Below are positions 2,255 to 25,790 of a stretch of 33,436 nt of DNA, in pieces. This stretch comes from Clostridia bacterium. GTDB lineage: Bacteria; Bacillota; Clostridia; Oscillospirales; CAG-272. The number at the start of each line of letters is the position of its first letter. The stretch's first letter is position 1. Made by a program: the position numbers and the translations under genes. The DNA lies in contig JAFTJZ010000038.1 in the NCBI GenBank assembly GCA_017456145.1, positions 1-33,436 on the forward strand, read 5' to 3'. The notes under the pieces were generated by a model that ran no database searches, was not told the DNA's origin, and saw nothing but the letters and a program-made list of their open reading frames with translations.

Positions 2255-2290
2255 GAAGTCATCCCGTTTTCTTTGAAAGGAAATATGCAT

Positions 2291-10672: not shown

Positions 10673-10701
10673 TTGACAAAGCCGTTACCGCGTGGTATAA
10701 T
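10673..10701 (+). promoter_or_regulatory. manA promoter
   Basis: TTGACA at 10673-10678, 17-nt spacer, TATAAT at 10696-10701: perfect consensus. Confidence 0.85.
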
Positions 10702-10738
10702 ATGGTATATCTTATCCAAGCACGAAAGGAACATACTT

Positions 10739-11725
10739 ATGCAGCATCTATATCCCTTGAAATTATCCTACGTAACCAAATCCCCCCTTTGGGGCGGCAA
10801 GCGCTTGCTTGACGGCTGGAACATTTCTGCCCCCGCAGGACAGGATACCATCGGCGAGGCCTGGATGCTGACCGTCCGCGAGAAGTATATGAGCGTAATC
10901 CAAAACGGGACGCTGCAGGGCATGACCATGCGGCAATACATCGACACTTACGGCAACGGTGTCGTCGGAGAAAGCTTTAACGGCGGCGATTTCCCGCTGC
11001 TGATCAAGCTGATCGATGCCTGCGACAAGCTCTCCGTGCAGGTGCATCCCGATGACGATTACGCCGCACGGGTCGAGAACGACCGCGGCAAGACCGAAAT
11101 GTGGGTCATCGTCGAGGCTGCAGACGACGCAGAGATCATATACGGCTTGCGCGACGGCATGAGTGCCCGGCAATTTCGCACAGCCGTGCGCGAGGGGCGT
11201 TTGTCCGAAACGATGCATCACTGCCCCGTCAAGGCGGGTGAGGTCTATTTCATTCCCTCCGGGATGCTCCACGCCATCGGCAAGGGGATTCTGATCGCCG
11301 AGATTCAACAAAACTGCGATCTGACCTACCGCGTATACGACTACGAGCGCCGTGGTGCGGACGGCTCGCTGCGTGAGCTACACGTAGACAAAGCGCTGGA
11401 TGTCACCGTTCCCTTTACCGAGGCCGAGGTGGACACCATTCGCTACGAGGCAGCCGACGCATCCGCAATCGACCGCAATACTCTGCTCGCACACTGCCGT
11501 TATTTCAAGACGCGCAAGCTGACCGTCTCCGAAGATGCAAAAGTTATGCTGACCGTGGATGCATCTTCCTTTGTCTTCTTGCTCTGCATCGACGGTGAAG
11601 GCGCGCTGCTCTGCGGCGATACGACCACCTCCATCCTTCGCGGTGAAGGCGTTTATCTCCCCGCCGGACTTGGCGAGGTCACGCTGCGCGGCAAGATGAC
11701 CGTTTTGGCAGCATCCATTCAATAA
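10739..11725 (+). CDS. manA: Mannose-6-phosphate isomerase, class I
   Basis: A zinc enzyme interconverting mannose 6-phosphate and fructose 6-phosphate in the cytoplasm. The start is the ATG at 10739, after GAAAGGA, giving 328 residues. It has the cupin zinc ligands of type I phosphomannose isomerases: QVHPDDDYA (His103), KTEMWVI (Glu120) and PSGMLHAIGKG (His178). The active-site segment EIQQNCDLTYRVYDYERRG follows. The size matches the short Firmicutes ManA form, with a small C-terminal cupin-like beta domain. It is a single-gene unit with its own strong promoter. With the GH38 mannosidase it would let the cell use mannose freed from imported glycans, although the phosphorylating enzyme is not in the window. 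Confidence 0.95.
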   Translation: MQHLYPLKLSYVTKSPLWGGKRLLDGWNISAPAGQDTIGEAWMLTVREKYMSVIQNGTLQGMTMRQYIDTYGNGVVGESFNGGDFPLLIKLIDACDKLSVQVHPDDDYAARVENDRGKTEMWVIVEAADDAEIIYGLRDGMSARQFRTAVREGRLSETMHHCPVKAGEVYFIPSGMLHAIGKGILIAEIQQNCDLTYRVYDYERRGADGSLRELHVDKALDVTVPFTEAEVDTIRYEAADASAIDRNTLLAHCRYFKTRKLTVSEDAKVMLTVDASSFVFLLCIDGEGALLCGDTTTSILRGEGVYLPAGLGEVTLRGKMTVLAASIQ

Positions 11726-11996: not shown

Positions 11997-13109
11997 TTAG
12001 TCTGCGGTCAGACCGGAGCGCTCGATACCTTGTACCAGGAAGTTCTGGCAGAACAGGAACAGGACAACCAGCGGAGCGATGATGACCAATCCGCAAGTAT
12101 TACGAATTGCGGAGTAGAACAGATTCTGACCTGCATAATCCGTCTTGAGCGAGTCCGGAATACCGACGATCTTAACCAGAAGGTTGGTCTTAGTCGAGGT
12201 AAAGAACATCGTCGTGTAGAAGTCATCGGTCCACTGCCAGCAGAATGCAAACAGGAACACGGTGATCATCATGGGCACGGACAGAGGCAGAATGATCTGA
12301 ACGAAGGTACGGAAGGTACCCGCACCATCGAGGTAAGCCGACTCCTCCAGAGCATCCGGCACGCCCGTGAAGAACTGACGGAGCATATAAATATACAGAC
12401 CGTTCTTAAAGGCGAGACCCGTCAAAGACAGGATGATCAGCGGGAAGTAGGTGTTACAGAGGTTCAGACCGGCCGTAGTCCAGATCTTCTGGAGGTCGGG
12501 GTTATCGGGACGAATGTCGATGACACCCTCAAGGAAGGTATGACCGAACAGCTCGATGCCGCCACCCGCCAGGAACTGGAAGATACCAAAGATATCAAAG
12601 TAACGGAAGGTCATAAACATGGACAACTGCAGCGTTCCGTGAGGAATGATCATGGTCAGCATGACCAACAGGAACAGCAGCTTGTTACCCTTGAAACGGA
12701 ACTTCGCAAAACCGTAACCGATCAAGCTACAGATCAGCATCTGGATCACAGCGGTGCTGAAGGAGAGAACGAAGGTGTTCAGGAAGGCAGACCAGTAGCC
12801 AAGCTCGGTCAACACTGCCTTGTAGGTTTTGAGCGTAAAGTTCTTAGGGATCAGACGTACCGTAACGTCGATGAAATCTTCTTCAGCCATGAAGGACGAT
12901 GCGATCTTGGTAAAGAAGGGATACAGGACGACGTAAGCAATACCGATCAGAAGGCAAAGGCGGAAGATGTACCATACGACGTTGGTCAGGAAGTATGTAG
13001 ACAGGAACTTTGCCTTCATACGCTCCAGGAGAGGTGTTCTTTCAAAATCAACGCGGATCTTGTTTTTTGTCTCTCTCTTGATTGTAGGTTTTGTATTTTG
13101 TGCGTTCAT
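11997..13109 (-). CDS. Carbohydrate ABC transporter permease, MalG type (second pair)
   Basis: An inner-membrane subunit of a CUT1-type sugar importer, 370 residues; MalG-type proteins are usually about 275-300. The extra length is a polar N-terminal extension (1-45) and an insertion of about 50 residues between helices (171-220, containing DIRPDNPDLQKIW), predicted extracytoplasmic. Six helices are visible. The cytoplasmic EAA loop reads EESAYLDGAGTFRTFVQIILP, the docking site for the ATPase. GGAAAGGAGG precedes the ATG, and it lies 21 bp after the MalF-type partner. Last gene of the operon. The insertion is unusual and may contact the DUF5696 protein or the large binding protein (inference). 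Confidence 0.92.
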   Translation of the reverse strand: MNAQNTKPTIKRETKNKIRVDFERTPLLERMKAKFLSTYFLTNVVWYIFRLCLLIGIAYVVLYPFFTKIASSFMAEEDFIDVTVRLIPKNFTLKTYKAVLTELGYWSAFLNTFVLSFSTAVIQMLICSLIGYGFAKFRFKGNKLLFLLVMLTMIIPHGTLQLSMFMTFRYFDIFGIFQFLAGGGIELFGHTFLEGVIDIRPDNPDLQKIWTTAGLNLCNTYFPLIILSLTGLAFKNGLYIYMLRQFFTGVPDALEESAYLDGAGTFRTFVQIILPLSVPMMITVFLFAFCWQWTDDFYTTMFFTSTKTNLLVKIVGIPDSLKTDYAGQNLFYSAIRNTCGLVIIAPLVVLFLFCQNFLVQGIERSGLTAD

Positions 13110-13130
13110 AGTATCAAATTCCTCCTTTCC

Positions 13131-14117
13131 TTACATATCCTTCTTCTGGTAGAAGACGTACGCCGAGAAGATACCACCGATGACCGCGACAATAAGCATA
13201 ATGATCAAGAAGTACATCCATGCCATTGCCGAGCTGAGTGTTTGACCATCTGCATCGTTGTAGACCTGACCAACGTAGCTCATGACCGCGTTGGAATCGG
13301 TGGTAAACGAGTCGATGATGGTATACACACCATTAACCAAAATCATCGGGCTGATCATCGGGAAGGTGATCTTCCAGAAGGTTTCCCACGAGGTCGCACC
13401 GTCAATACGGCAGGACTCGTAGATTGCGGGAGAGATGGACTGCAGAGCAGCCAGGAAGATAAGCATCTGTACACCGGAACGGTTAACGATATCATAGATT
13501 TCGTTGATCGCTCTGGCAACGTACTGAACCAGCTCTGTACCGACCTTCATGTTGGCGAACAGAACCTGGAGGTCCACAGCGGAGACGATCTCCGCTGCGG
13601 TATTTTGGTTAGAACCATCATCGATACCATTCGTGCTGTCCATGTAGGTATCCAGAGTGTTCTGCGCGTTGATGCTCTCCATGATACCGGTCGCAAGAAC
13701 GACAGGGATGAAGAAGATCGCACGGAACACGGCACGACCGACCATCTTCTGGTTCAAAAGCACTGCCATGAACAGAGAGAAGATCAGAATTGCGGGAATC
13801 TCAAACAGCATCTGACCCAGACCCGTGACCAGTGTCTGAACGAATCCGGTGTCCTCAAAGAGGGCATCCATGTAGTTCTCCAAGCCCACATACTCCAGAT
13901 AGAAACCACCACCTGTGATAATATGGACCTTATTGAAGCTCATAACGATGGAGTCAACAACCATCGGAAGGTAAACCAGGATAAATCCGATGATAAACGG
14001 GAGGACGAACATCCAACCCGCGCGCGCTTTACGGCGGTCAAGGGAGGCGATCTTACGCTTTTTCGGAGCCGCCTTCTTTGCACTGACGGCTGCATTTAAT
14101 TTCACGTCATTTGTCAT
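13131..14117 (-). CDS. Carbohydrate ABC transporter permease, MalF type (second pair)
   Basis: The partner of the preceding MalG-type subunit in a CUT1-type importer, 328 residues, six helices. The N-terminus (1-33) is Lys/Arg/Ala-rich and cytosolic. The first helix is GWMFVLPFIIGFILVYLPMV. Residues 148-212 form a polar, partly acidic loop (SINAQNTLDTYMDST...) between helices, much longer than in ordinary MalF-like proteins of Gram-positives. The EAA loop is YESCRIDGATSWETFWKITFP. GAAAGGAGAGG precedes the ATG. It lies 19 bp after the DUF5696 gene, in the same transcription unit. DUF5696 neighbours with such looped permeases recur in Clostridia and Bacilli, to my recollection. Confidence 0.92.
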   Translation of the reverse strand: MTNDVKLNAAVSAKKAAPKKRKIASLDRRKARAGWMFVLPFIIGFILVYLPMVVDSIVMSFNKVHIITGGGFYLEYVGLENYMDALFEDTGFVQTLVTGLGQMLFEIPAILIFSLFMAVLLNQKMVGRAVFRAIFFIPVVLATGIMESINAQNTLDTYMDSTNGIDDGSNQNTAAEIVSAVDLQVLFANMKVGTELVQYVARAINEIYDIVNRSGVQMLIFLAALQSISPAIYESCRIDGATSWETFWKITFPMISPMILVNGVYTIIDSFTTDSNAVMSYVGQVYNDADGQTLSSAMAWMYFLIIMLIVAVIGGIFSAYVFYQKKDM

Positions 14118-14136
14118 TGTTCACACCTCTCCTTTC

Positions 14137-17100
14137 TCAATAATAGATCTCGACATACTCGCTGCCGGGGATAGTGTAGAGGCGCACCTCATCACCAATG
14201 GTGTACTCAACCGTGACAGCAAAGTTGTTGTAGTTCAGAATGAAGGTCTTGTAAGCGGTACCGTCGTCCTCACCGTAGGTGACTGCAACGATGTTGTTGT
14301 CGACAAAGAATCTATCAACAACTTCCTCTTCTTCCTCTTCTTCCTCAAGGTACTCGTCGATTTCCTCGCGAGACAGACCACCCTCTTCAGCAGCTGCATA
14401 GATCTCATCAATGTAGCGCTGGCATTCGTTAACCTTGCTCTCGATATTGCCGAGATAGCTCAAGGTAGATGCCGCGCAGGACTCAGCCTCTTGGATCAGA
14501 GCATCGGATGCACCTGCCTCCTCCAGCAGCTCGACAGCCTGATTTGCCTGCTCAACCAGAGCAAGGACGGTCTCATGAACGTCAATAGACGCCATTGCAA
14601 GCGTGATAGCTTCGACAGCATTGTTTCTTGCACCATTCAAGTTGATGTTGTAATTCTTAAGGGCACGCTTTGCATTCGTTTCGTTACCCTCTGCAAGAGC
14701 CTCCTGGTAATTATCCCAGCTGTAGCTGCAAGTATTCAATGCGGTGGTAACCTTATCAACAGCAGAAGAAATTGACTTCATATCTGTCTCGAGCTGTTTC
14801 AGCGTCTCCTGCATGATCTCAACGCCGTTCTTCGCTGCGGCTCTTGCCTCGGCGATGGCGTTGATTTTTTCAAGACGCAGCTGCTCCTCATACTGAGCCT
14901 CGAATTCACTACGGGAAGTATTGGTGGACTCGATCTCTGCGATCAGCTCATCAACATCCAGAACACGCATACCACTCAAGAACTCATGGTCGATGATCAG
15001 CTTGGTCTGTACATCCGCAAGCACGGAGTTCAGCTCTGCATACTGTTCAACCACGTCGTCCTTCCAGATCGCGTAGTTGACGGAGTAATACTGAGACAGC
15101 ATACCTGCCTCCTTCAGCTCTGCGGTATTACGGTAAGACATAACGTAATACAGAGCAGCGCCGTTCTCAATTGCCTTCAGCATTGCATAGTTGGCATCGC
15201 CTTCCATGTTCAGCGCGTTACCTGTGAACTGTACGTAGCCGTGCAGAACCAGACCGATGAACGGAACGGAGTAGCTTGCCTTCATGAAACGGGAGGAATC
15301 GAGGTTTACGTTCAGCAGATGATCGATATACTGCAGCGTATATGCGTTACCGAGATCTGCCATGATACCACCGGTGACGCTTGCGTCATTGGAAATGGTA
15401 TCCAGAGCACTGATGATGAATGCCTTGCTGTCCTCGCGGTTGTAAGGCTCATCCTCATCAAAGTCGGTGTTCAGGTCACTACCCATCGTAGCAAGGGAAA
15501 CACCCATGCCGCCGTACTCTGTGTACTCTGCGTATTCAGCCAGCATCTTGTTATAGATGCGGTCGATATATGCGGGAGAGAGTGCGAGGTTATAAGTGCT
15601 GACGTAAGCCTGCTGGGAAGGATAGTAATAAGACTTCGAGGTATAACGGTTATCAATGGTACGGATACAATCGCGTTTCTGCGAAATACCGTCAAACAGC
15701 TCATTGATCACCAGATACAGCATCTCAAATTCGGGATAGACACCCAGATGCTCACCATCGCTCGCAGCCTGCTGTGCACGCTGCAGCAATGTGATCATAC
15801 CGTCCTCACCGCCGACAGCCTTTTCCCACTTGATCTTGGTAGGAGCGGTAGCGTACATACCACCGTTGGCAAAGCCGGTCAGCTTAAAGTTGATGTTCTT
15901 GATGCCCGCGTCGGAAAGCTCTTCATACATAGCAATGACGTCGTCAAAGGTCGTCAGAGGTTTCATAACGTCCACGGGGAAGGACATGATCTGCTCGGTC
16001 ACCTCAAGTGCACCGAAGGACTCGATGTAAAGAGGGATGTAATCCTCAAGGATATCGTCCGCGGTCAAGCGGGAGAGGATGCCCTTGTTGATCAGATAAT
16101 CGGAATAAGCATCTGCCATTCCCATGTAGTCTGCCTCGTAGTACGCAGGAGTCTCGGCAAAGCCGGTTTCCGTAGCCAGCGTCTCATCAGACAGCAGGAA
16201 GTAGCGGATCTTGAGGTTACCCGTATACTTACGGTCAGAAACGACCGTCAGTGTCTGGGAACCGGAGACGGAAATGGAGTCGCCAAGGTTGTAGGTATCC
16301 TTGGGGCGGGGGTTGAAGTAGTTCATCATGGTGTGGTAGTCGCTCAAGGAACCTGCATGATAGGTAGCAAGCTCGGTCAGGGACTCACCCTCCTCGATGA
16401 CTGCGAAGTAACCGTTTGTCGTGACGACTTCCTTGATGTCGGAATACTCGTCGATAAGACCCGCGGTCACATCTGCATCCAGAAGAAGCTCCAGATCATC
16501 CACGGTATGGACAACCGTCGTGCTGATTCTCTGCTCTTCGACGACGTTCACGGTTTCACCCGTTTCGTCGTTGGTCTCCTCAATCATGGTCTCATAGACA
16601 TACATCAGCTGGTCTTCCTTTACACCGAAGACGGGCATGGTGATTGCCTTCTGATACTTACCATCCAGCTGGTGATAAGCGAAATCAAGACCGTAGATCT
16701 TACGGGATGCGGTATAGGTCGACTTCCCTGCCAGATCCTCAAAGGCAAACAGTGCGCCGGAGCCGTCGGGATAGAAGGTATAACCGGTGTTGTAGCTGTT
16801 ACCTGCACCCATGTAGGGGAGAACGCTGATGTACTCCAAAGAGTACAGAGTGGAGTTGAAACGAACGCCGTTAGAGGGCAGACGAACGGTGAAACCGTCC
16901 TCATTGAGCGCATACTCCAGTGCCATCTTAAACACGGGGGACAGCTCATTTTCGCTCTCATAGCCGGTCTCGGCATGGTCGGCATCCATCTGATCGAAGG
17001 TGTAATCCGGGCAGAAACCCTTGATGTTCTCTTCGATAAAGCTCAGCTCGACGGGCGTGATATCGGCGTCCAAGCTGTAGATATCCATGTTGGCGCAGAC

Positions 17101-17778
17101 GGGATACTGCTTAAGCAAGCCCTCTTTTGCCTTTGTGGAGTTTTGCGTGGACAAGCTCTGCAGCGTATAGAACGCGCTGAATCTTGTAAAGGGGTGCGTA
17201 CCGCCGATTGCCTCCTCCAGAGGCGCCATGATCAGCGTCTGGAAGTTGGTGGCGGAGATCAGACGAGGAGCCAGCTTTCTGGTTGCCTCGTTACCGATGG
17301 TGTACTCAACACGAACACCTGTCTTGATCTTCTTGACCTTGATCTGCCCGTTTACGGCAGCGTGCTCGTAGGAGTTCATCAGTTTGGGGTTATCATTATC
17401 GGTATAACGGATAATGATCTGCGAAAGAACACTGTTCTTGGTGGATTCGGAACCGATGGAGCTTGCAACATCGTACGGGTTGGAAAGTGAAATCTGACCC
17501 GTGATCTTGTTGACAACGGCAAATGCACCTGTGAATTCATTGAAGTACATTGCGTAGTTATCGTTCTCCATGTAAAGCGTCATATACTCCAGAACCTCTT
17601 CGGGGGTATTGAACACTTCTTTGACATAGTCGATATCAGCGGCGGTGATAACCTCTTCTTCCGTAGCCTCCTCATCCGTCGCTGCTGCGCTGACGTTCAG
17701 CACAGTCAGAGAGGTCAGAGTGCCAAGCACCATCAAGACAGCCAAGAACGCAGAGAGTGTTTTCAAAAATATTTTCAT
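14137..17778 (-). CDS. Secreted DUF5696-domain protein with coiled-coil insertion
   Basis: A 1213-residue exported protein of unknown reaction. Residues 1-32 are a signal peptide (AFLAVLMVLGTLTSL...NVSA-A) without a lipobox. Residues 70-560 are beta-rich, including YFNEFTGAFAVVNKITGQISLSNP and PYMGAGNSYNTGYTFYPDGSGALF. Residues 565-935 look like an alpha/beta barrel (IPLYIESFGALEV, GIKNINFKLTGFANGG, LGVYPEFEMLY, GSDLNTDFDEDEPYNRED, GLVLHGYVQFTGNALNMEG). These segments match DUF5696 as I know it, and the arrangement recalls retaining glycosidases, but I cannot assign catalytic residues. Residues 945-1135 are a long helical coiled-coil insertion, ended by seven to nine Glu (1144-1152). The last 60 residues are a small beta domain (TFILNYNNFAVTVE). 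AGGAG precedes the ATG. It probably processes or binds the glycan imported by the permeases. Confidence 0.85.
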   Translation of the reverse strand: MKIFLKTLSAFLAVLMVLGTLTSLTVLNVSAAATDEEATEEEVITAADIDYVKEVFNTPEEVLEYMTLYMENDNYAMYFNEFTGAFAVVNKITGQISLSNPYDVASSIGSESTKNSVLSQIIIRYTDNDNPKLMNSYEHAAVNGQIKVKKIKTGVRVEYTIGNEATRKLAPRLISATNFQTLIMAPLEEAIGGTHPFTRFSAFYTLQSLSTQNSTKAKEGLLKQYPVCANMDIYSLDADITPVELSFIEENIKGFCPDYTFDQMDADHAETGYESENELSPVFKMALEYALNEDGFTVRLPSNGVRFNSTLYSLEYISVLPYMGAGNSYNTGYTFYPDGSGALFAFEDLAGKSTYTASRKIYGLDFAYHQLDGKYQKAITMPVFGVKEDQLMYVYETMIEETNDETGETVNVVEEQRISTTVVHTVDDLELLLDADVTAGLIDEYSDIKEVVTTNGYFAVIEEGESLTELATYHAGSLSDYHTMMNYFNPRPKDTYNLGDSISVSGSQTLTVVSDRKYTGNLKIRYFLLSDETLATETGFAETPAYYEADYMGMADAYSDYLINKGILSRLTADDILEDYIPLYIESFGALEVTEQIMSFPVDVMKPLTTFDDVIAMYEELSDAGIKNINFKLTGFANGGMYATAPTKIKWEKAVGGEDGMITLLQRAQQAASDGEHLGVYPEFEMLYLVINELFDGISQKRDCIRTIDNRYTSKSYYYPSQQAYVSTYNLALSPAYIDRIYNKMLAEYAEYTEYGGMGVSLATMGSDLNTDFDEDEPYNREDSKAFIISALDTISNDASVTGGIMADLGNAYTLQYIDHLLNVNLDSSRFMKASYSVPFIGLVLHGYVQFTGNALNMEGDANYAMLKAIENGAALYYVMSYRNTAELKEAGMLSQYYSVNYAIWKDDVVEQYAELNSVLADVQTKLIIDHEFLSGMRVLDVDELIAEIESTNTSRSEFEAQYEEQLRLEKINAIAEARAAAKNGVEIMQETLKQLETDMKSISSAVDKVTTALNTCSYSWDNYQEALAEGNETNAKRALKNYNINLNGARNNAVEAITLAMASIDVHETVLALVEQANQAVELLEEAGASDALIQEAESCAASTLSYLGNIESKVNECQRYIDEIYAAAEEGGLSREEIDEYLEEEEEEEEVVDRFFVDNNIVAVTYGEDDGTAYKTFILNYNNFAVTVEYTIGDEVRLYTIPGSEYVEIYY

Positions 17779-17799
17779 ATAACTTCTCCTATCTGTGTC

Positions 17800-19950
17800 T
17801 TATACACGGTACTGGATTTCTACAATAATGTTCGTAATCAAGCTGATGATCTTACCGACCAGCGTAGAGAACAGGACGGTAACGAAGATGATCAAAGCCA
17901 TACCGATGATCGTTCCGGCGAAGGTCGCCACGTTTCTACCCAAAGAGTAGTCGTGTGTGACCATGGTACCAAAGAAGATCAGAAGACCCATCCAAACCAT
18001 GGCAATCGTCACAATCAGCGAGATGATAGAGGCCTCGGTATCAACAACAAAGTTAGATGCGAAGGTCGAAGGAATGACCAGCAGCGGGACGGGCAGCAGC
18101 GAGTAGGAGGTTGCAATAAAGATATCCTTAAAGCTACCTTCACCCTCAAACAGCGTCGTCAAGCACCAGTTTGCCGTAACGAACAGCAGGAAAGGCACCA
18201 TAACACCGATGATCTGGATCCACAGCGTGGAATAATTTCCTCTCGGGTTGCTGACATAGCCCTGACCGATTGCCTGATAATAGAATGCGACCACAGTCAG
18301 AACGATGAAGACGATCGACGCACGCAGCGAACCGCGCTTTTCATGTTTCAGATCCCAGTAACCGTCAAACGGATGGAACATGGTATAGAAACCGTACATC
18401 AGCTCCTGCCAGAAGGTCTTGCGCTCGCGACCGTCGGTTGCAGCCTTCTTGTTCACCTTTGCGGCGTAACCGAAGAACTTGACGATCAGAACGATCAGAA
18501 CGACGATGCCGATGATCAGCCACAGGAAGTACTCAGACATCCATTCCTTACGAACTTCCTTAAAGGCGTTGGACCAGTTGGCAGTATCGTAAGCGACCTC
18601 GTAGTATTCCATAGCCTCTTCGTACTCACCGCTGCGGTAAAGGGCGTTACCGATACCGATATAAGCGGCGTCGAAGTTTGCGTTGTGCTGCAGAACGTCT
18701 CTCCAGCAGGTAATTGCGTAGGTGTAATCCAGAGAGTTCTCTGCGCCGATTGCCTCGAGCAGCAGGTCACCGTAAGGTGTTCTCTCATAAACGACGATAC
18801 AACCGCTGGAGCTGTCAAGGACCAGCATGGTGTCGTCCTGATAAGTAATAGCCTTGATGTTCTTAACGGAACCCAGCATGGAGCCCTCATCACCGAAGGC
18901 AAACAGCAAGTTACCGTTAAAATCGTAGGTGTAGATACGGCTGCGCTCGTCATCAATGATGGACCAGGTCTGGTCAGGACCGCAGGCGACGTCAACGATA
19001 CGGGAAACACCCTTTTGCGTATCAGTAGCACGGTACGACTGGAACTGGATCTCACCGGCGGGAGGATAGAAACCGTTACGTCTCATGATCTCGGTACCGG
19101 CGGAGTTGAGCATCTTGACAGGCAGGCTGTCGCCGCTCTTGGACTTGGAAAGGATCGCGGACTCAACGACAGAATCTTCGATCGAGGAGGTGGTTACGTA
19201 GATATAACCGCGATTCTCTTCATTGGTCGTGATGGTAATGTTGTTGAACTCCGTCGAGACGACACGCTCGGACTTTGCTCTTTGCTCCTCAGTCTGGAAT
19301 CTTCTCCAGATGATCTGCCACAAAGACAGCGTAACCTTCTGTGCGCCGATGAACTTGATAAATTCACCTTCCTCGGTCATGACGATGATACCCTGATAGG
19401 TCGTGGAAGACACGATGTACAGACGGTTCCAGTCGTCAACTGCGATGGCAACGGGCTTATAAACGGAATTTTCCTCAAAGAGAGCACTTTCAGGCTCCTT
19501 GATGGTCTTGATGAAGTTACCCTCACGGTCGAAGACAACGATACGAGCCTTGCCGGTATCGCAGACCCAGATGCGATCGGAGGTTACATAGACACCTTGA
19601 GGACCGGACAGGCTATCGTCGATACCCTGCTCGTTGATGAAGGTGCTGATGTAAAACTTCAATTTGTAATAACGGTCCAGAGCGATGATACGGTTATTAC
19701 CCGCATCAGCGATATAGACGTTCATGTCCTCGTCTGTAACAAGGTCAGATGCGTTGTTCAGACCCAGCTCATCCAGCCCCATACCGGCAGCGTCGATGGC
19801 GTTGTATGCAGAATATGCATCAGGAGAATACAGTGCGGTACCACTGATACTGTAGGTGTAGGTCTGATATGCAGAGGATGCACTGACGGGGATGGAAAGC
19901 AGCGTCACAAGGGCAAGGACGACGCAAAGAACAGATAAAATCTTTTTCAT
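17800..19950 (-). CDS. Beta-propeller/TPR/Yip1 membrane protein
   Basis: A 716-residue fusion. Residues 1-25 are a signal peptide. Residues 45-445 hold NHL/propeller-like blades, for example ASDLVTDEDMNVYIADAGNN, GPQGVYVTSDRIWVCDTGKA, PVAIAVDDWNRLYIVSS and IVDVACGPDQTWSIIDDERS. They are followed by a TPR-like pair of helices (about 450-515, FDAAYIGIGNALYRSGEYEEAMEYYEVAY). A membrane helix (521-543) leads to a basic cytosolic loop and then the Yip1 domain (about 560-716, five helices) starting MYGFYTMFHPFDGYWDLKHEKRG. Topology puts propeller and TPR outside. Yip1 proteins are known as small polytopic membrane proteins; their bacterial role is unclear. AAGGAGG precedes the ATG, 11 bp after malG. 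Its place between two permease pairs suggests a sensor or scaffold for substrate delivery (inference). Confidence 0.88.
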   Translation of the reverse strand: MKKILSVLCVVLALVTLLSIPVSASSAYQTYTYSISGTALYSPDAYSAYNAIDAAGMGLDELGLNNASDLVTDEDMNVYIADAGNNRIIALDRYYKLKFYISTFINEQGIDDSLSGPQGVYVTSDRIWVCDTGKARIVVFDREGNFIKTIKEPESALFEENSVYKPVAIAVDDWNRLYIVSSTTYQGIIVMTEEGEFIKFIGAQKVTLSLWQIIWRRFQTEEQRAKSERVVSTEFNNITITTNEENRGYIYVTTSSIEDSVVESAILSKSKSGDSLPVKMLNSAGTEIMRRNGFYPPAGEIQFQSYRATDTQKGVSRIVDVACGPDQTWSIIDDERSRIYTYDFNGNLLFAFGDEGSMLGSVKNIKAITYQDDTMLVLDSSSGCIVVYERTPYGDLLLEAIGAENSLDYTYAITCWRDVLQHNANFDAAYIGIGNALYRSGEYEEAMEYYEVAYDTANWSNAFKEVRKEWMSEYFLWLIIGIVVLIVLIVKFFGYAAKVNKKAATDGRERKTFWQELMYGFYTMFHPFDGYWDLKHEKRGSLRASIVFIVLTVVAFYYQAIGQGYVSNPRGNYSTLWIQIIGVMVPFLLFVTANWCLTTLFEGEGSFKDIFIATSYSLLPVPLLVIPSTFASNFVVDTEASIISLIVTIAMVWMGLLIFFGTMVTHDYSLGRNVATFAGTIIGMALIIFVTVLFSTLVGKIISLITNIIVEIQYRV

Positions 19951-19961
19951 TGAAATCCTCC

Positions 19962-20834
19962 TTAATCCTTCATACCACTGGAACCCATGGTCTCAATGAT
20001 ATTCGACTGCGAAATAACGAACACGATGATCGGCACGGACATCATCAGCACCTGCGAAGCACCACCGGCGCCCGCACGCTTGATACCACCTGCCAGGATC
20101 TGACCGATTGCGTAGTTGAACGATTTGAGCTGCTCGGAATAGATGTAGATCGATCCACCCGCGTTCCAGAGTCCCTGGAAGGAGAAGATGATCAGCGTCA
20201 GCCAAGCGGGCTTAACCATGGGCATTGCAATGGTCCAGAAGGTGCGCAGCTCGCTTGCGCCGTCAAGTCTTGCACTCTCAAGCACTGCGTCGGTAACGTT
20301 GGTATCCATGAACTGTTTCATCAGGTACAGACCCAGCGTCGAGCACCATGCGGGAACGATGATGGCCCAGTAGCTGTCGATCCACTTGAACGCAGCCATA
20401 ATGAAGAAGGAACAGACAGCGGTGATGGTCGAGTGGAACATCAGCGACATCTCAACCGTCTTAAACATGACGGTGCGGCCGGGGAACTTGATCTTTGCCA
20501 TGGCGTATGCACAAATGGAGGCAAGGAAGAGGTGTCCGAAGGTACCTGCGACCGAGATAAAGACGGTATTAAAAATGTAACGGGAGAACGGAACCCAAGA
20601 GGTGTTCATCAGAACGAACAGATCCCTGAAGTTTTTCAAGGTAGGGTTCATAACGTAGAATCGAGGGGGGTACATCCACAACTCGTCAAGGGGCTTGAGT
20701 GCCTGCATGATGACGTAAAGCATCGGCAGGAACATGAAGGCACCGAGAATGACAAGCAGGAACGTAATGCCCGCGTCACCTCCCGCAGAGCGGGAGAGGA
20801 CGACCTTATGCTTTCTTGTTCTTAATTTTGCCAT
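19962..20834 (-). CDS. Carbohydrate ABC transporter permease, MalG type (first pair)
   Basis: A 290-residue CUT1 permease of ordinary size with six helices. The EAA loop is LESARLDGASELRTFWTIAMP, contacting the ATPase. The conserved entrance segment MQALKPLDELWMYPPRFYVMNPTLKNF and the C-terminal periplasmic-face segment are standard for MalG-like proteins. The segment GGSIYIYSEQLKSFNYAIGQILAGG matches the region of MalG-type proteins just before the last helix. The ATG at 20834 lies one base past the stop of the MalF-type partner. Its ribosome binding site (AAAGGTAGG) is inside that gene's 3' end, so the two are translationally coupled. Substrate cannot be read from the permease. Confidence 0.93.
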   Translation of the reverse strand: MAKLRTRKHKVVLSRSAGGDAGITFLLVILGAFMFLPMLYVIMQALKPLDELWMYPPRFYVMNPTLKNFRDLFVLMNTSWVPFSRYIFNTVFISVAGTFGHLFLASICAYAMAKIKFPGRTVMFKTVEMSLMFHSTITAVCSFFIMAAFKWIDSYWAIIVPAWCSTLGLYLMKQFMDTNVTDAVLESARLDGASELRTFWTIAMPMVKPAWLTLIIFSFQGLWNAGGSIYIYSEQLKSFNYAIGQILAGGIKRAGAGGASQVLMMSVPIIVFVISQSNIIETMGSSGMKD

Positions 20835-20835
20835 A

Positions 20836-21786
20836 TTACGTACCTACCTTTGACAACATTTTCTTGATAAGCATGTTCGTACCGATCATGACGGCAAACA
20901 GGATAACGGCGATTGCGGACGCATAACCCATCTCGTAACGCTGACCTGCATAGTCGTCAAGGTGGTGCATGATGGTATGTGCGGCATAGTCAACGGAGGG
21001 GAAACCGCAAAGTGCGGTAACGACGCCACCGAAACCGAACGCACCGGTAATGGACATGACGGCACCGAACATCAGCTGCGGTCTCATGGAAGGCAACGTA
21101 ATGTACCAGAGCTCCTGCCAACGGTTGCGAACACCGTCCACGGCACCCGCCTCATAGAGCGCACGGTCGATACCCTGCAGACCTGCGATAAAGTTCAGGA
21201 AGGAGGTACCAAGCGAGGTCCACAAAGCGACCACGATACAAAGGGGCATGACGTATTCAGCTGTCTGGAACCAAGCAATAGGCTCATTCAGCACACCGAT
21301 CTCCATCAACGTTGCGTTGACCCAGCCGTATGCATCGGCGGAGAACAGCGTCTGCCAGATCAGGTAAACCGAACCCGAAATGGACGGTGCGTAGAAGATC
21401 AGGGTGACCACAGCGCGGACGCGGGGGTCAAGCTCGTTGATGAACCATGCAACGAGGAAGGACAGGATGTAAGACACAGGTCCGACGACGCTTGCGAAGA
21501 TCAGCGTGTTCTTGCAGGCGATCAGGAAGATGTCATCATCGAAAAACAAGGTGATGTAGTTGTCCAGCCAAACGAAGTTGGGGGGCAGCTGCAACATATT
21601 AAAGTCGGTAAAGCTGATAACGATGGACAGGATGACGGGCAAGACAGTGAAGATGGAGAAAAGGATCATATAAGGTGCGACCATGGCATAGGCGACCTTA
21701 TTTGTTTTCATCTCTTTCCAGATCCACTGACGGCGAGTCATATCTGTGCGCTGTACTGCTTGTAATTCTGCAGATTTCTTTGACAT
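20836..21786 (-). CDS. Carbohydrate ABC transporter permease, MalF type (first pair)
   Basis: A 316-residue CUT1 permease. A polar N-terminus (1-32, with WIWKEMKTNKVAY) is followed by AYMILFSIFTVLPVILSIVISF as the first helix and five more. The EAA loop is LYEAGAVDGVRNRWQELWYITLP. It forms the heterodimer with the MalG-type subunit directly downstream. The start ATG has AGGAGAG before it and lies 47 bp after the binding-protein stop, the longest gap inside the operon. Unlike the second pair it has no enlarged extracytoplasmic loop, so it is the conventional pair for the solute-binding protein. Confidence 0.93.
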   Translation of the reverse strand: MSKKSAELQAVQRTDMTRRQWIWKEMKTNKVAYAMVAPYMILFSIFTVLPVILSIVISFTDFNMLQLPPNFVWLDNYITLFFDDDIFLIACKNTLIFASVVGPVSYILSFLVAWFINELDPRVRAVVTLIFYAPSISGSVYLIWQTLFSADAYGWVNATLMEIGVLNEPIAWFQTAEYVMPLCIVVALWTSLGTSFLNFIAGLQGIDRALYEAGAVDGVRNRWQELWYITLPSMRPQLMFGAVMSITGAFGFGGVVTALCGFPSVDYAAHTIMHHLDDYAGQRYEMGYASAIAVILFAVMIGTNMLIKKMLSKVGT

Positions 21787-21833
21787 ATATGCTCTCTCCT
21801 TTTTCTTGATTTATAAATTCAAAGGGTACAGGA

Positions 21834-24800
21834 TCAGTAGGTAGACAGAGCGTTTGCAGCGTCGGCGATGCACTGTGCAGCAAAGTAAATCATCTGCTCA
21901 TAGCTCAACTCGTCGATGTCATAACCGCCATCGGATTTCTTTGCCTGATCTTGTCTTGAAACTTTGACGAAATAGGTGCTCTCATCCACGGAAGAAAGCT
22001 TTTCCATCAGTTGGTCGGAATAGTCTTGCAGAAGAACGATTTCCTCGTCACTGAATGCTGCGCTGACCGTGATGCTCAGATCTGTGAAGTAAGCATCGTC
22101 CTCACCAAGGATCTCCAGCGCGGTGATTGCCTGCGTAATTCTCTTATCGGCAAGCGTCTGACCAATCTCCAGCGTCTCGAGCTTAAACTCGGCGCGCTTA
22201 CGGTTGATCTCCTTGTTGATGCTGTTGATGTAGCTGAGCAAGCTTGCTACAGGGTCAGCATCGTCGTTGTATGCAGCAAGGAATGCAAAGTTGGTGTAAC
22301 GACCGATGTAGTAAGCACCGGGATAGTTGGGAACAGATGCAAGGTTGTTAAACTGCTTGCGGATCTCCACCAGCTCCTCCGTCGTCCAAGGCATGGACTC
22401 CAGAGCCTGACGGTTTGCGGTGTTGTGCTTTGCAGAGTCACCGATGATCGCAACCATGTCGTTTGCATATGCAGTCTGAGCATCTGCGCCGGTAAACCAC
22501 TTCAAAAATTCCCAAGCCTCGTCCTCGCGGTCGCAACCGTGAACGATTACGTCAGCGGTAACGCCTGCAATTGCGCAGTTGTTGATCTGACCGGTGGTCT
22601 TATCCATCGTACCGGGCAGCGGAACCATCTTCCACAGACCCTCGATCTCGGTTGCGAAGACCTTCAGCTGGTTGTACATACCCGTATAGTCGGCAACCAG
22701 AATGGGCATCTCACCCGTTCTGAAACGGTTCGCAGCACTGTAAGAATAGGGGAATCCGCGCATGGTAAACAGCGTACACATGGTCTCAAAGGCATCCAGA
22801 CCCTCCTTGGAGTCCAGATTGATTCTCATACCATCGTCAGCGAACAGCTCGCTGCCGCCCTGATACAGGAACACCTGATAGTCGGTGGTCAGACCGATCT
22901 CCATGTTGTTACCCTCAAGGACCGTCTGTGCCATGTAGATATCCTCCCAGGTCGTGGGAATATCGATATTCATCTCAGCCAGAACGTCGATACGAACGAA
23001 CATCATCGGGAAACCTTGAATCTCGGGCAGACCGTAGTAGTGATATTCATCATCTGCGTTGGCGATACCGAGAACCAGCATAGCAGCGTCGGTAAAGTTT
23101 TCGGTGACCTCATCGAAGTCCTCGCGAACCGTGCCGTCGGACTTGACGTCAACCGTCAGCAGCGCACCACGAATTGCGTAGTTGATAACGCTACCGGAAT
23201 CCAGTCCCAGATAAACGTCGGGACCCATGCCTGCCAGAATAGAAGGCAGCAGCGTACCGCCGGTGATCAGCTTAAGGTCAACGGGGATACCGGAATCGTA
23301 AGTAAAGTCGTTGGTAACCAGGTTACGAATGACCTGAGACTGGTCACGACCGTATGCAACCCAAACCTCAAGAGCCTCGCCCTCAATCTCCGACATTGCA
23401 CCCATTGCGTTGTAGTCACGCAGGAAGGACTGAATAAAGGAAGAGATCTCGTGGCCGACCTTCTTGAAGAATCCGGGCTCTGCGACGGGCAGATCATTGT
23501 CGTCGGACTGAACCAGGATGTAGTCCAGCAGCAGGGGCTGTTTCTTTGCATCGGAGAGGAAGGTACCCAGCGAACCGATGTGGGTCTTGAGCTGCTCCAG
23601 ATTGGGAGCGATCTTATCCTCATCATGCATCTCGAACAGTGTCTCTGCGACCTTTTCCAGAGATGCGACCGTGGAGGAGTTCTCACCTGCAACGGCCTTC
23701 AGCTCCTCGGCAACGGCATACAGTCTGTCGGACTGTCTGACCATATCCGCCAGCGTCTGAGGCATAACGCGAGTGAAGTTATAATCGCGGTAGTCGTCAG
23801 GGGAGGTACCCGTCAGACGGAGAATGCTCAGATAATCGGTGTTGATGCAATTCAGAATATCCTCAATCTCGTTGATGACGGATGCCATGCTGCCCAGCGT
23901 GACCTCCAGCTGCAGCGTGTACTCCACGCCCTCAACCAGATAGAACTCATGATTGATCTGCTCACCGTTTTCATCCAGCGAGCCGTCAACTACGCCACTG
24001 GACTGCCAGTAGGAGGAGTAGTTGAAACGAGCCGCAGACGCCTCAAGGAAGGGATAGCCGTCGTAGTAACCGTCAGCACCCTCTGCCAGGCCCTCGCTGT
24101 ACAGCTTGATGGCACGGCTGACAAACAGACCGTCCAGCACAGACTGCTTATAGCGGAAATCGAACGAATACAGACCCGTAGAATCGACCTTGAATTTGTA
24201 GGTAACGGTCTGACCGGGGGTTCCCCACTTCTCACCGCCGATGGTGTTCAGCAGCGTACGGGAGGTATCCACGGGAGAGGTTGCGGCAGATGCACGGTCC
24301 TCTGCGGGATAAACCGTATTGGTCGCGGTGGTATCGGTATACTCTGCCTCAAGCTTAATGACAGACTCGCCCTTGGGCGCGTTCGCATACTTGGCAATGT
24401 ACTCCGCATACGTAATGGTGTCCTCAACGGGATACAACTCGATCTTGGCGATCGCCATTGCCTCGTTGACGCCCTTCAGAGTCAGCATAACGTTTCCGTC
24501 CTCATCGGGCTCGATGATGTAACGGAAAGCCTCGGCATAAAAGCCCTGGCTGTCACACAGCTCATACGTACACCACTCGGGAGACTGAACGGCAGTGGGA
24601 CGCAGCTCGTTCTTTTCCAGGTCGGTGGTCATAAAGCGAGCACCGAGGGTGTCATTCAAATAGGTAGAGATCTCCTCGGTCCACAGATCGGGGAACTCAT
24701 AAAGAATGTAGGTTCCGTCCTCACGGTCCTCCTTGGTAGCGGTCAAGCCAAGTTCAGATGCCTTGGAGAGATAGCTGTCAGCGCTCTCGCCCTTGGCAAG

Positions 24801-25385
24801 TTTGTACTCTGCCTGATCGTAATCATTGGTCCATCTCTTGGCAAAGGTGATGGAACGGGACTCACTGAAGGCCGCACCGCCGTTGATATAGAACTCACGC
24901 TCAATCGCAGCGGACTTACCCACGATAGGGTAATAATACACACGAACGCTGTACAGACCGGGAGTCACGCCGCTCTTTTTGAAACTGACTTTGCCGTCAC
25001 CGGGGGTGTACAGGCAAGGTGTGCCTTCAATTTCAGCCTTGAAGATGCCCTGCAGGCTTGCGTCGTTGACGGTATTGCCGTCTGTCAGAAGTGCATACTG
25101 TTCTGCAGTCAGCCAATCCAGCGTCGTGTTTTCCTCATCGAGATCCTCGATGGCGTCGAATACCACAGCCTTATCGGGTGTGTCATACTGCCCGAACGTC
25201 TTCTGGTACTCGCTGTACGAAATTGACTCGAGCTCTTCCTTGTAATCAGCAATCGTCTTTTCTGTGACGGTGTTGAAGGCAGCCTCTTCGCCTTCTGCTG
25301 CGGAAACCGAAATAATTCCGGCACCGAGCATGAGCGTCAAAGCGAGCAAGAAAGAAACCACTCTTTGAAATTTCGCTTTTCTCAT
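21834..25385 (-). CDS. Giant extracellular solute-binding protein with N-terminal beta-sandwich domains
   Basis: First gene of the operon, 1183 residues; ordinary family 1 binding proteins have about 420-550. Residues 1-29 are a signal peptide (FLLALTLMLGAGIISVSA-A) with no lipobox Cys, so membrane anchoring is not by lipid. Residues 115-320 and 340-530 look like two carbohydrate-binding beta-sandwiches (SGVTPGLYSVRVYYYPIVGK; VDSTGLYSFDFRYKQS). Residues 535-660 are helical. The binding fold runs about 668-1085: ALEVWVAYGRDQSQVIRNLV, LPSILAGMGPDVYLGLDSG, GLPEIQGFPMMFVRIDVL, IPTTWEDIY, NCAIAGVTADVIV and the WEFLKWFTGADAQ motif. A further 100-residue helical tail follows INKEINRKRAEFKL. RBS AGGAGGAAA at 25399-25391. 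It probably captures an oligosaccharide for one or both permease pairs. Confidence 0.9.
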   Translation of the reverse strand: MRKAKFQRVVSFLLALTLMLGAGIISVSAAEGEEAAFNTVTEKTIADYKEELESISYSEYQKTFGQYDTPDKAVVFDAIEDLDEENTTLDWLTAEQYALLTDGNTVNDASLQGIFKAEIEGTPCLYTPGDGKVSFKKSGVTPGLYSVRVYYYPIVGKSAAIEREFYINGGAAFSESRSITFAKRWTNDYDQAEYKLAKGESADSYLSKASELGLTATKEDREDGTYILYEFPDLWTEEISTYLNDTLGARFMTTDLEKNELRPTAVQSPEWCTYELCDSQGFYAEAFRYIIEPDEDGNVMLTLKGVNEAMAIAKIELYPVEDTITYAEYIAKYANAPKGESVIKLEAEYTDTTATNTVYPAEDRASAATSPVDTSRTLLNTIGGEKWGTPGQTVTYKFKVDSTGLYSFDFRYKQSVLDGLFVSRAIKLYSEGLAEGADGYYDGYPFLEASAARFNYSSYWQSSGVVDGSLDENGEQINHEFYLVEGVEYTLQLEVTLGSMASVINEIEDILNCINTDYLSILRLTGTSPDDYRDYNFTRVMPQTLADMVRQSDRLYAVAEELKAVAGENSSTVASLEKVAETLFEMHDEDKIAPNLEQLKTHIGSLGTFLSDAKKQPLLLDYILVQSDDNDLPVAEPGFFKKVGHEISSFIQSFLRDYNAMGAMSEIEGEALEVWVAYGRDQSQVIRNLVTNDFTYDSGIPVDLKLITGGTLLPSILAGMGPDVYLGLDSGSVINYAIRGALLTVDVKSDGTVREDFDEVTENFTDAAMLVLGIANADDEYHYYGLPEIQGFPMMFVRIDVLAEMNIDIPTTWEDIYMAQTVLEGNNMEIGLTTDYQVFLYQGGSELFADDGMRINLDSKEGLDAFETMCTLFTMRGFPYSYSAANRFRTGEMPILVADYTGMYNQLKVFATEIEGLWKMVPLPGTMDKTTGQINNCAIAGVTADVIVHGCDREDEAWEFLKWFTGADAQTAYANDMVAIIGDSAKHNTANRQALESMPWTTEELVEIRKQFNNLASVPNYPGAYYIGRYTNFAFLAAYNDDADPVASLLSYINSINKEINRKRAEFKLETLEIGQTLADKRITQAITALEILGEDDAYFTDLSITVSAAFSDEEIVLLQDYSDQLMEKLSSVDESTYFVKVSRQDQAKKSDGGYDIDELSYEQMIYFAAQCIADAANALSTY

Positions 25386-25754
25386 GTAACTTTCCTCCTA
25401 CAAGATTTTCACAAAACGCATGGAAAAGTGCGTTTTGCGGCTTGGGTGCGCTCCCACAAATGCCGGATTCCCGCCGATATTCCGTCCCGGGAATGAGACG
25501 GCGGCAGGATCGCTTTTCCCCATTCGCGCTCGGCTTTTTGTCGTACGCGGACAGAGAGAACGGAGCTGCGCGGTTGTCCCGACCGTGCAAAGCCGTAAAA
25601 AAGCATGGGAACGCCACCGGTCACCGACCCGGAAGTCGGCATTATTGTGGATGTACAGGTGTCATCCTCGCACCCGAGAATGCCCTGTGCCTCACGAAAA
25701 AGGGTGAAATGCACCGCTCAGACGAGCATTTGCGCAGTACGCCCTAAATTGAGA
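25386..25754 (-). promoter_or_regulatory. Long structured 5' leader of the seven-gene operon
   Basis: About 370 nt separate the predicted transcription start (near 25754) from the start codon. The leader is GC-rich, unlike the AT-rich gap upstream of the promoter. Minus-strand hairpins include GGATG...CATCC (25667-25649), CCGAC...GTCGG (25639-25624) and, just before the ribosome binding site, a perfect 9-bp stem TGCGTTTTG/CAAAACGCA (25437-25412). I match it to no known riboswitch. It could hold an attenuator, a protein-binding site or a stability element. Confidence 0.5.
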
Positions 25755-25761
25755 TGCTAAT

Positions 25762-25790
25762 ATGATACCACAAGGCGGCGCAGATGTCAA
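25762..25790 (-). promoter_or_regulatory. Promoter of the seven-gene glycan transport operon
   Basis: Minus strand: TTGACA (25790-25785), 17-nt spacer, TATCAT (25767-25762). It is the only good promoter upstream of the binding-protein gene, and no gap inside the operon exceeds 47 bp. Confidence 0.8.

Follow-up and report, generated by a model that had tools for sequence, protein, structure and literature searches.

Among described transport systems, one of the closest to the locus studied here is a CUT1 importer encoded by athe_0595-0598 of Anaerocellum bescii, which, according to the available part of its report, combines one permease pair with two solute-binding proteins (SBPs) and a distant, shared MsmK ATPase (PMC12838199). 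A permease serving several receptors is documented for Pseudomonas aeruginosa, in which DppBCDF is common to the paralogous binding proteins DppA1-A5, tested by mutants and complementation in the portion of the study available (PMC4206461). Among glycosidases, the catalytic domains of GH129 and GH101 are described as similar in the accessible part of another source (PMC8106489).

The window, that is, the whole stretch of 33,436 nucleotides from a Clostridia bacterium that was analyzed, carries seven genes on the minus strand, running from 25385 to 11997 with intergenic gaps of 47, 1, 11, 21, 19, and 21 bp in order. The single tight row of genes described in the first-pass annotation is thus borne out. 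The genes and the adjoining regulatory matches are as follows.

25762..25790, minus strand: sigma-70-like promoter match (11/12 consensus bases), ~370 nt before the first gene
21834..25385, minus strand: giant SBP, 1183 aa; signal peptide without lipobox; SBP domain at ~660-1075
20836..21786, minus strand: permease F1, MalF-like, pair 1
19962..20834, minus strand: permease G1, MalG-like, pair 1
17800..19950, minus strand: NHL beta-propeller + TPR-like + Yip1 membrane protein, 716 aa
14137..17778, minus strand: DUF5696 protein, secreted, 1213 aa; GH129-type fold with a long helical insert
13131..14117, minus strand: permease F2, MalF-like, pair 2; extra loop of tens of residues
11997..13109, minus strand: permease G2, MalG-like, pair 2; extra loop of tens of residues
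11964-11937 and 11776-11739, minus strand: two terminator-like hairpins past the last gene

Pfam places SBP_bac_8/1 at residues 687-977 of 1183 in the giant SBP (PF13416, 4.6e-14; PF01547, 1.8e-13), BPD_transp_1 on all four permeases (P0003 scoring below the cut-off, 24 versus 26.4 bits), NHL and Yip1 together with a TPR-like match below the cut-off on the 716-aa protein, and DUF5696 on the 1213-aa protein (E 2e-124). No ATPase or regulator is found by Pfam among the seven genes, in agreement with the first description of the operon. The statement in that description that no recognized glycosidase is present holds by family name but not by fold, since the DUF5696 protein has a GH129 fold. The single promoter that had been proposed fares similarly: a match with 11 of the 12 consensus bases exists, but the region holds 18 promoter-type matches versus 14.5 in shuffles, with further matches inside the operon, making it weak evidence. 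Rfam gives zero matches within the window, including the leader of ~370 nt (25386-25761). Near the operon, the window encodes a 954-aa protein (2273-5137) that we take to be GH38 alpha-mannosidase-like and, at 10673-11725, presumably a mannose-6-phosphate isomerase (manA)-like protein; the operon flanks consist of housekeeping-like genes, judged by eye.

DUF5696 was searched in 59 genomes and found above the cut-off in 46, some of the matches being GH129-like proteins outside the operon, and 40 loci from 40 genomes were then compared. In 38 of these 40 loci from relatives, the full order SBP-F1-G1-NHL/Yip1-DUF5696-F2-G2 is present; in the other two, L046 and L063, a contig end interrupts the operon. 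An alignment search of named genomes with the NHL-Yip1 protein confirmed at least 569 of 593 stretches, of which the best 80, from Clostridia/Oscillospiraceae MAGs, were kept; by their titles, many of these MAGs come from ruminant, horse, rabbit, or chicken gut. The operon is whole in 66 of these best 80 loci and has a contig end inside it in the other 14. All 104 loci without a contig-end cut (38 + 66) keep the whole order, in two sets that overlap (e.g., L033 and L073) and are not independent, some genomes being counted twice. The gene order is beyond chance. DUF5696 and Yip1 genes lie beside the permeases in both sets, contrary to the distant placement that the first-pass annotation named as its refutation, and the sequence data support the earlier assignment of a putative import operon of the CUT1 type that holds two pairs of permeases.

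Beyond these sets, eight further loci include five with the standard order, one permuted locus (L157), and two that are cut. Among 19 loci sampled more widely in the phylum, 11 match the standard gene content and arrangement (the Yip1 ORF being unresolved in L173), three (L181, L183, and L185) are permuted to NHL/Yip1-DUF5696-F2-G2-SBP-F1-G1, four (L175, L176, L186, and L187, the last at a contig end) have only NHL/Yip1-DUF5696-F2-G2, and L182 is only partly resolved by ORF picking. Both permease pairs are retained in the permuted loci (L157, L181, L183, and L185), NHL-TPR and Yip1 are two separate ORFs in several distant loci, and in resolved loci one giant SBP per operon directly precedes F1. 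The window's genome has one DUF5696 locus. Considering operon genes only, enzyme genes are absent in the window's family; in several distant copies, glycosidase genes (GH26-CBM35, GH43, GH31, GH106, GH78-like, and GH2) adjoin the operon. One genome (G045) carries six DUF5696 copies (L067 and L153-L157) with differing neighbors, namely, GH78-like, GH127-like, GH2 mannosidase-like, GH31 plus GH106, GHMP kinase, and AraC/LacI regulator genes. An Omp85/POTRA gene near the distant copy L184 (15273-17090) suggests that the system is also present in a two-membrane host.

The DUF5696 protein takes the GH129 glycosidase fold, which was traced via related GH129 genes; matches of the DUF5696 profile to PDB sequences were rejected because they look like chance. 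The fold is common to the alpha-N-acetylgalactosaminidase NagBb (5wzn) and the Zobellia GH129 enzyme (8rzk, which we take to be the same enzyme as 5opq), at 13-16% identity. The nucleophile Asp of these enzymes (presumably D435 in NagBb, with E478 as the acid/base) has given way to Thr or Ser in the window's family: of 110 sequences from the family and its near kin, 106 have T or S at the nucleophile position, none has an acidic residue there, and 2 have an acid within two residues of it; the window's protein carries Thr. The acid/base column reads D in 54, E in 23, and S in 19 of the 110, where the alignment could be shifted by a residue or two. Given the lack of acidic residues in the nucleophile column of these sequences, the DUF5696 protein would probably bind glycan rather than trim it. 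The trimming role first suggested for it is hence unlikely here, although an acidic residue occupies that column in 13 of 36 distant copies (D in 12, E in 1). The length of DUF5696 proteins ranges from 727 to 2061 aa (L041, L046, L052, and L067), and the insert of the window's protein is helical in the predicted structure. Relatives also encode GH129-type proteins away from the operon. One of these, L161, matches NagBb, and L162-L164 are 39-42% identical to it.

By sequence, the closest solved relative of the SBP domain of the giant is Listeria innocua Lin1841 (5ysb; E 2.4e-21), compared to which the giant has roughly 650 extra N-terminal residues; the specificity of Lin1841 cannot be carried over to it. 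The MalF/MalG-type EAA-loop motif E[SA]x..DG is present in 39/39 F1, 39/39 G1, 23/41 F2, and 37/41 G2 sequences, and the F2 sequences without DG, among those displayed, have EG instead. Extra loops of tens of residues in F2 and G2 are missing from F1, G1, and another CUT1 pair of the window's genome (C65), with eight copies aligned. MalF/MalG topology puts such loops on the outer face, so the F2 and G2 loops would point outward, where by analogy they could meet SBPs.

Which SBPs might these be? A PF01547 search of the window's genome revealed SBPs far from permeases. With a model derived from six of these and a threshold of 250 bits, 27 paralogous SBPs, one with a stop, are found on 14 contigs of this genome (G000); we refer to them as orphans. 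No F/G-type permease lies near them in the 16 stretches read, and four of the 27 start within ~1 kb of a contig end. All 27 carry a lipobox-like motif, which in the family plus near kin is seen in 16 of 99 giants and 10 of 110 DUF5696 proteins; the pattern used is permissive and also matches some cysteines by chance. Eight genomes together hold 101 SBP matches, including fragments; for 14 of them, a PF00528 domain of any kind is present on the same contig, at a distance of 8.8 kb or more. Set against all PF00528 domains, the SBP matches number 27 versus 15 in the window's genome, 18 versus 12 in G001, 20 versus 10 in G010, 30 versus 15 in G040, and at least 150 (150 of 184 candidates being scored) versus 13 in G030, in which the nearest permease among the matches listed, by eye, is ~2.8 kb away (C14, 215 aa). 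PF00528 domains, with permease classes unsorted, outnumber the SBP matches in G003 (17 versus 10), G004 (18 versus 14), and G005 (16 versus 10). Contamination of 7.5% in the window's MAG could inflate its own orphan count; relatives listed at 0-5% give 10 to 150 matches. Neighbors of orphan SBPs include two DUF4838/GH67N-like lipoproteins (L271:1429-5831) and a 770-aa SBP_bac_5 lipoprotein (L274:7670-9982).

Orphans and operon tend to occur together. Taking a best E value of ≤1e-30 for orphans and a DUF5696 E value of ≤1e-70 for the operon, 35 of the 59 genomes have both, 9 the operon only, 3 orphans only (G002, G007, and G009), and 12 neither (Fisher p 7e-5, without relatedness correction). 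A strong orphan is accordingly absent from 9 of 44 operon-positive genomes; among those with orphans and no operon, G002 is 73% complete, and G007 and G009 have one SBP each, on a contig without a permease.

G001 and G010, with 18 and 20 orphan matches, encode 14 permease proteins outside the operon, of which the 10 scanned belong to the Opp, amino-acid, Pot, and Sao/SsuC-like types and the remaining 4 give zero matches to the F/G models; no CUT1 permease outside the operon was found in these two genomes. None of the 8 of 11 permeases scanned in G040 is CUT1, a C2 pair and one C36 gene lying outside the scan. Many paralogous SBPs lie apart from permeases and, in the window's genome, G001, G010, G030, and G040, outnumber the permeases of their class. 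The C65 pair in the window's genome stands beside an SBP that is unmatched by the orphan model and beside what looks like an ATPase gene by eye. Two additional CUT1-like pairs are present in G030 (C21 and C109), and such pairs could serve orphans. Where an SBP might be expected after the CUT1-like pair of C21 (L286:675-5390), there is instead a 937-aa protein that, by eye, carries a membrane anchor. An OB_MalK domain is present in the window's genome at C61 8917-9084, in a gene that is cut off by the contig end, beside unrelated genes.

A second, conventional SBP (SBP2) is found near the operon in several other lineages. Of 36 loci from outside the window's family, 14 have an operon-adjacent SBP that the orphan model matches at ≥40 bits, compared to none of the 31 from within it; the count covers 68 sources, L200 included, and several of the 14 loci come from one genome. 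SBP2 lies directly after G2 in six loci (L153, L169, L175, L178, L180, and L186), further downstream in two (L176 and L177), and upstream of the giant SBP or the NHL/Yip1 gene in six (L154, L170-L173, and L183). Because 6 of the 14 lie upstream, it is unsure whether SBP2 is tied to pair 2 rather than pair 1. In a tree of 68 SBPs, made by a quick method and showing some long branches and deep support of 82-96, the 27 orphans by themselves make up one side of a branch, a single clade (SH-aLRT 100) placed among 18 of 19 operon-linked SBP2s, and the opposite side of the tree holds 17 giants, five other SBPs, and L174. The operon-linked SBPs of L179, L182, and L185, which match the orphan model weakly or not at all and are labeled "gen," group on the giants' side; the SBP2 and gen labels were assigned after the orphan-model HMM scores. 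By this tree, the orphans are kin to the operon-linked SBP2s and stand apart from the giants. The proposal of two importers fed by one capture system finds no support, given SBP2s beside the operon elsewhere and 27 unlinked relatives in the window's own genome.

The reading that we favor, with a probability of about 0.5, is that the operon may be a common carbohydrate-uptake hub for many dispersed orphan receptors, probably via pair 2 and with a distant MsmK-type ATPase. Pair 2 (F2-G2) would most likely be the common door for dispersed orphans, lipoproteins of the SBP2 type, each presumably catching a different oligosaccharide, and the giant SBP would deliver to pair 1 (F1-G1). The NHL-Yip1 protein would act as an anchor; DUF5696, a GH129 fold without its nucleophile, would keep glycan or binding proteins near the doors; and ATP hydrolysis would be supplied by a distant MsmK/UgpC-type ATPase. 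A hub-and-spoke version, held slightly more tentatively, has one seven-gene machine serving tens to >100 unlinked receptor lipoproteins, with the dead glycosidase and the propeller-Yip1 protein as a docking platform, so that diet range could evolve through receptor duplication alone. The recount of SBP2s, with 8 downstream and 6 upstream, lowered our confidence in the common hub from 0.55 and took the hub-and-spoke version from even odds to just under them. Also weighing against the common hub are the orphan SBPs of G007 and G009, which lack the operon, the 9 operon-positive genomes without a strong orphan, the other CUT1 pairs of the window's genome and of G030, the surplus of PF00528 domains in G003, G004, and G005, the four orphans close to contig ends, and the assignment of the SBP2 and gen labels after scoring.

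Three other explanations deserve consideration. The operon might encode two ordinary CUT1 importers for one glycan class, with orphans that never come into contact with these permeases and act as surface sensors, adhesins, or scavengers. The glycosidase genes adjoining several distant operons would suit such importers, and G007 and G009 retain one such SBP without the operon, but this explanation leaves 10 to 150 SBP2-kin matches per genome without an obvious transporter, and we consider it unlikely. The first-pass annotation instead had a single giant SBP feed both pairs while DUF5696 trims the catch. Separate SBP2 genes adjoining the operon in other lineages and the lack of any acidic nucleophile in the 110 sequences make this rather improbable, even though each resolved operon places a single giant SBP immediately ahead of F1. 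An envelope function, such as wall glycan recycling or surface assembly, is slightly less probable again; near-universal presence would then reflect an envelope role rather than feeding. The many plant-glycan enzymes that adjoin distant copies and the six copies in one genome argue against it, while the single DUF5696 locus in the window's genome, the lack of named enzymes in the operon, and the flanking genes that look housekeeping-like by eye are what it would predict.

If the common hub is correct, it would explain how few transporters could be enough for gut Clostridia to eat many glycans, give a first role to DUF5696 and the NHL-Yip1 protein, and offer one target for testing the sugar uptake of the whole family; permease counts may then underestimate the diet of these bacteria. 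Literature searches on Yip1 with permeases, DUFs, orphan SBPs, and shared permeases yielded, by titles and abstract openings, no recognized paper on this system, and searches by the names DUF5696 and DUF6259 found nothing. The available part of PMC8579813 contains no assignment attachable to these genes, and the orphan SBPs of PMC13311272 were discarded as a parallel, as the SBP studied in the accessible text has adjoining permease genes. Likewise, athe_0595-0598 was dropped as a candidate for the same system, its neighbor athe_0594 being given in the available text as a GH5-CBM28 endoglucanase and not DUF5696.

As far as the accessible part of its report goes, the A. bescii system resembles the window's operon in being a CUT1 oligosaccharide ABC importer with a distant ATPase, which is a proposal here. 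Unlike it, the window's operon has two permease pairs, a giant SBP, and the NHL-Yip1 and DUF5696 proteins, and its genome contains dozens of unlinked SBPs. The likeness to Dpp, as the available portion of that study describes it, would lie in several paralogous SBPs acting on one permease, again a proposal for the present system. Dpp handles peptides with five SBPs, whereas here the substrates are presumed to be sugars, the SBP matches number 10 to 150 per genome, and their coupling to a common permease is what we infer by analogy.
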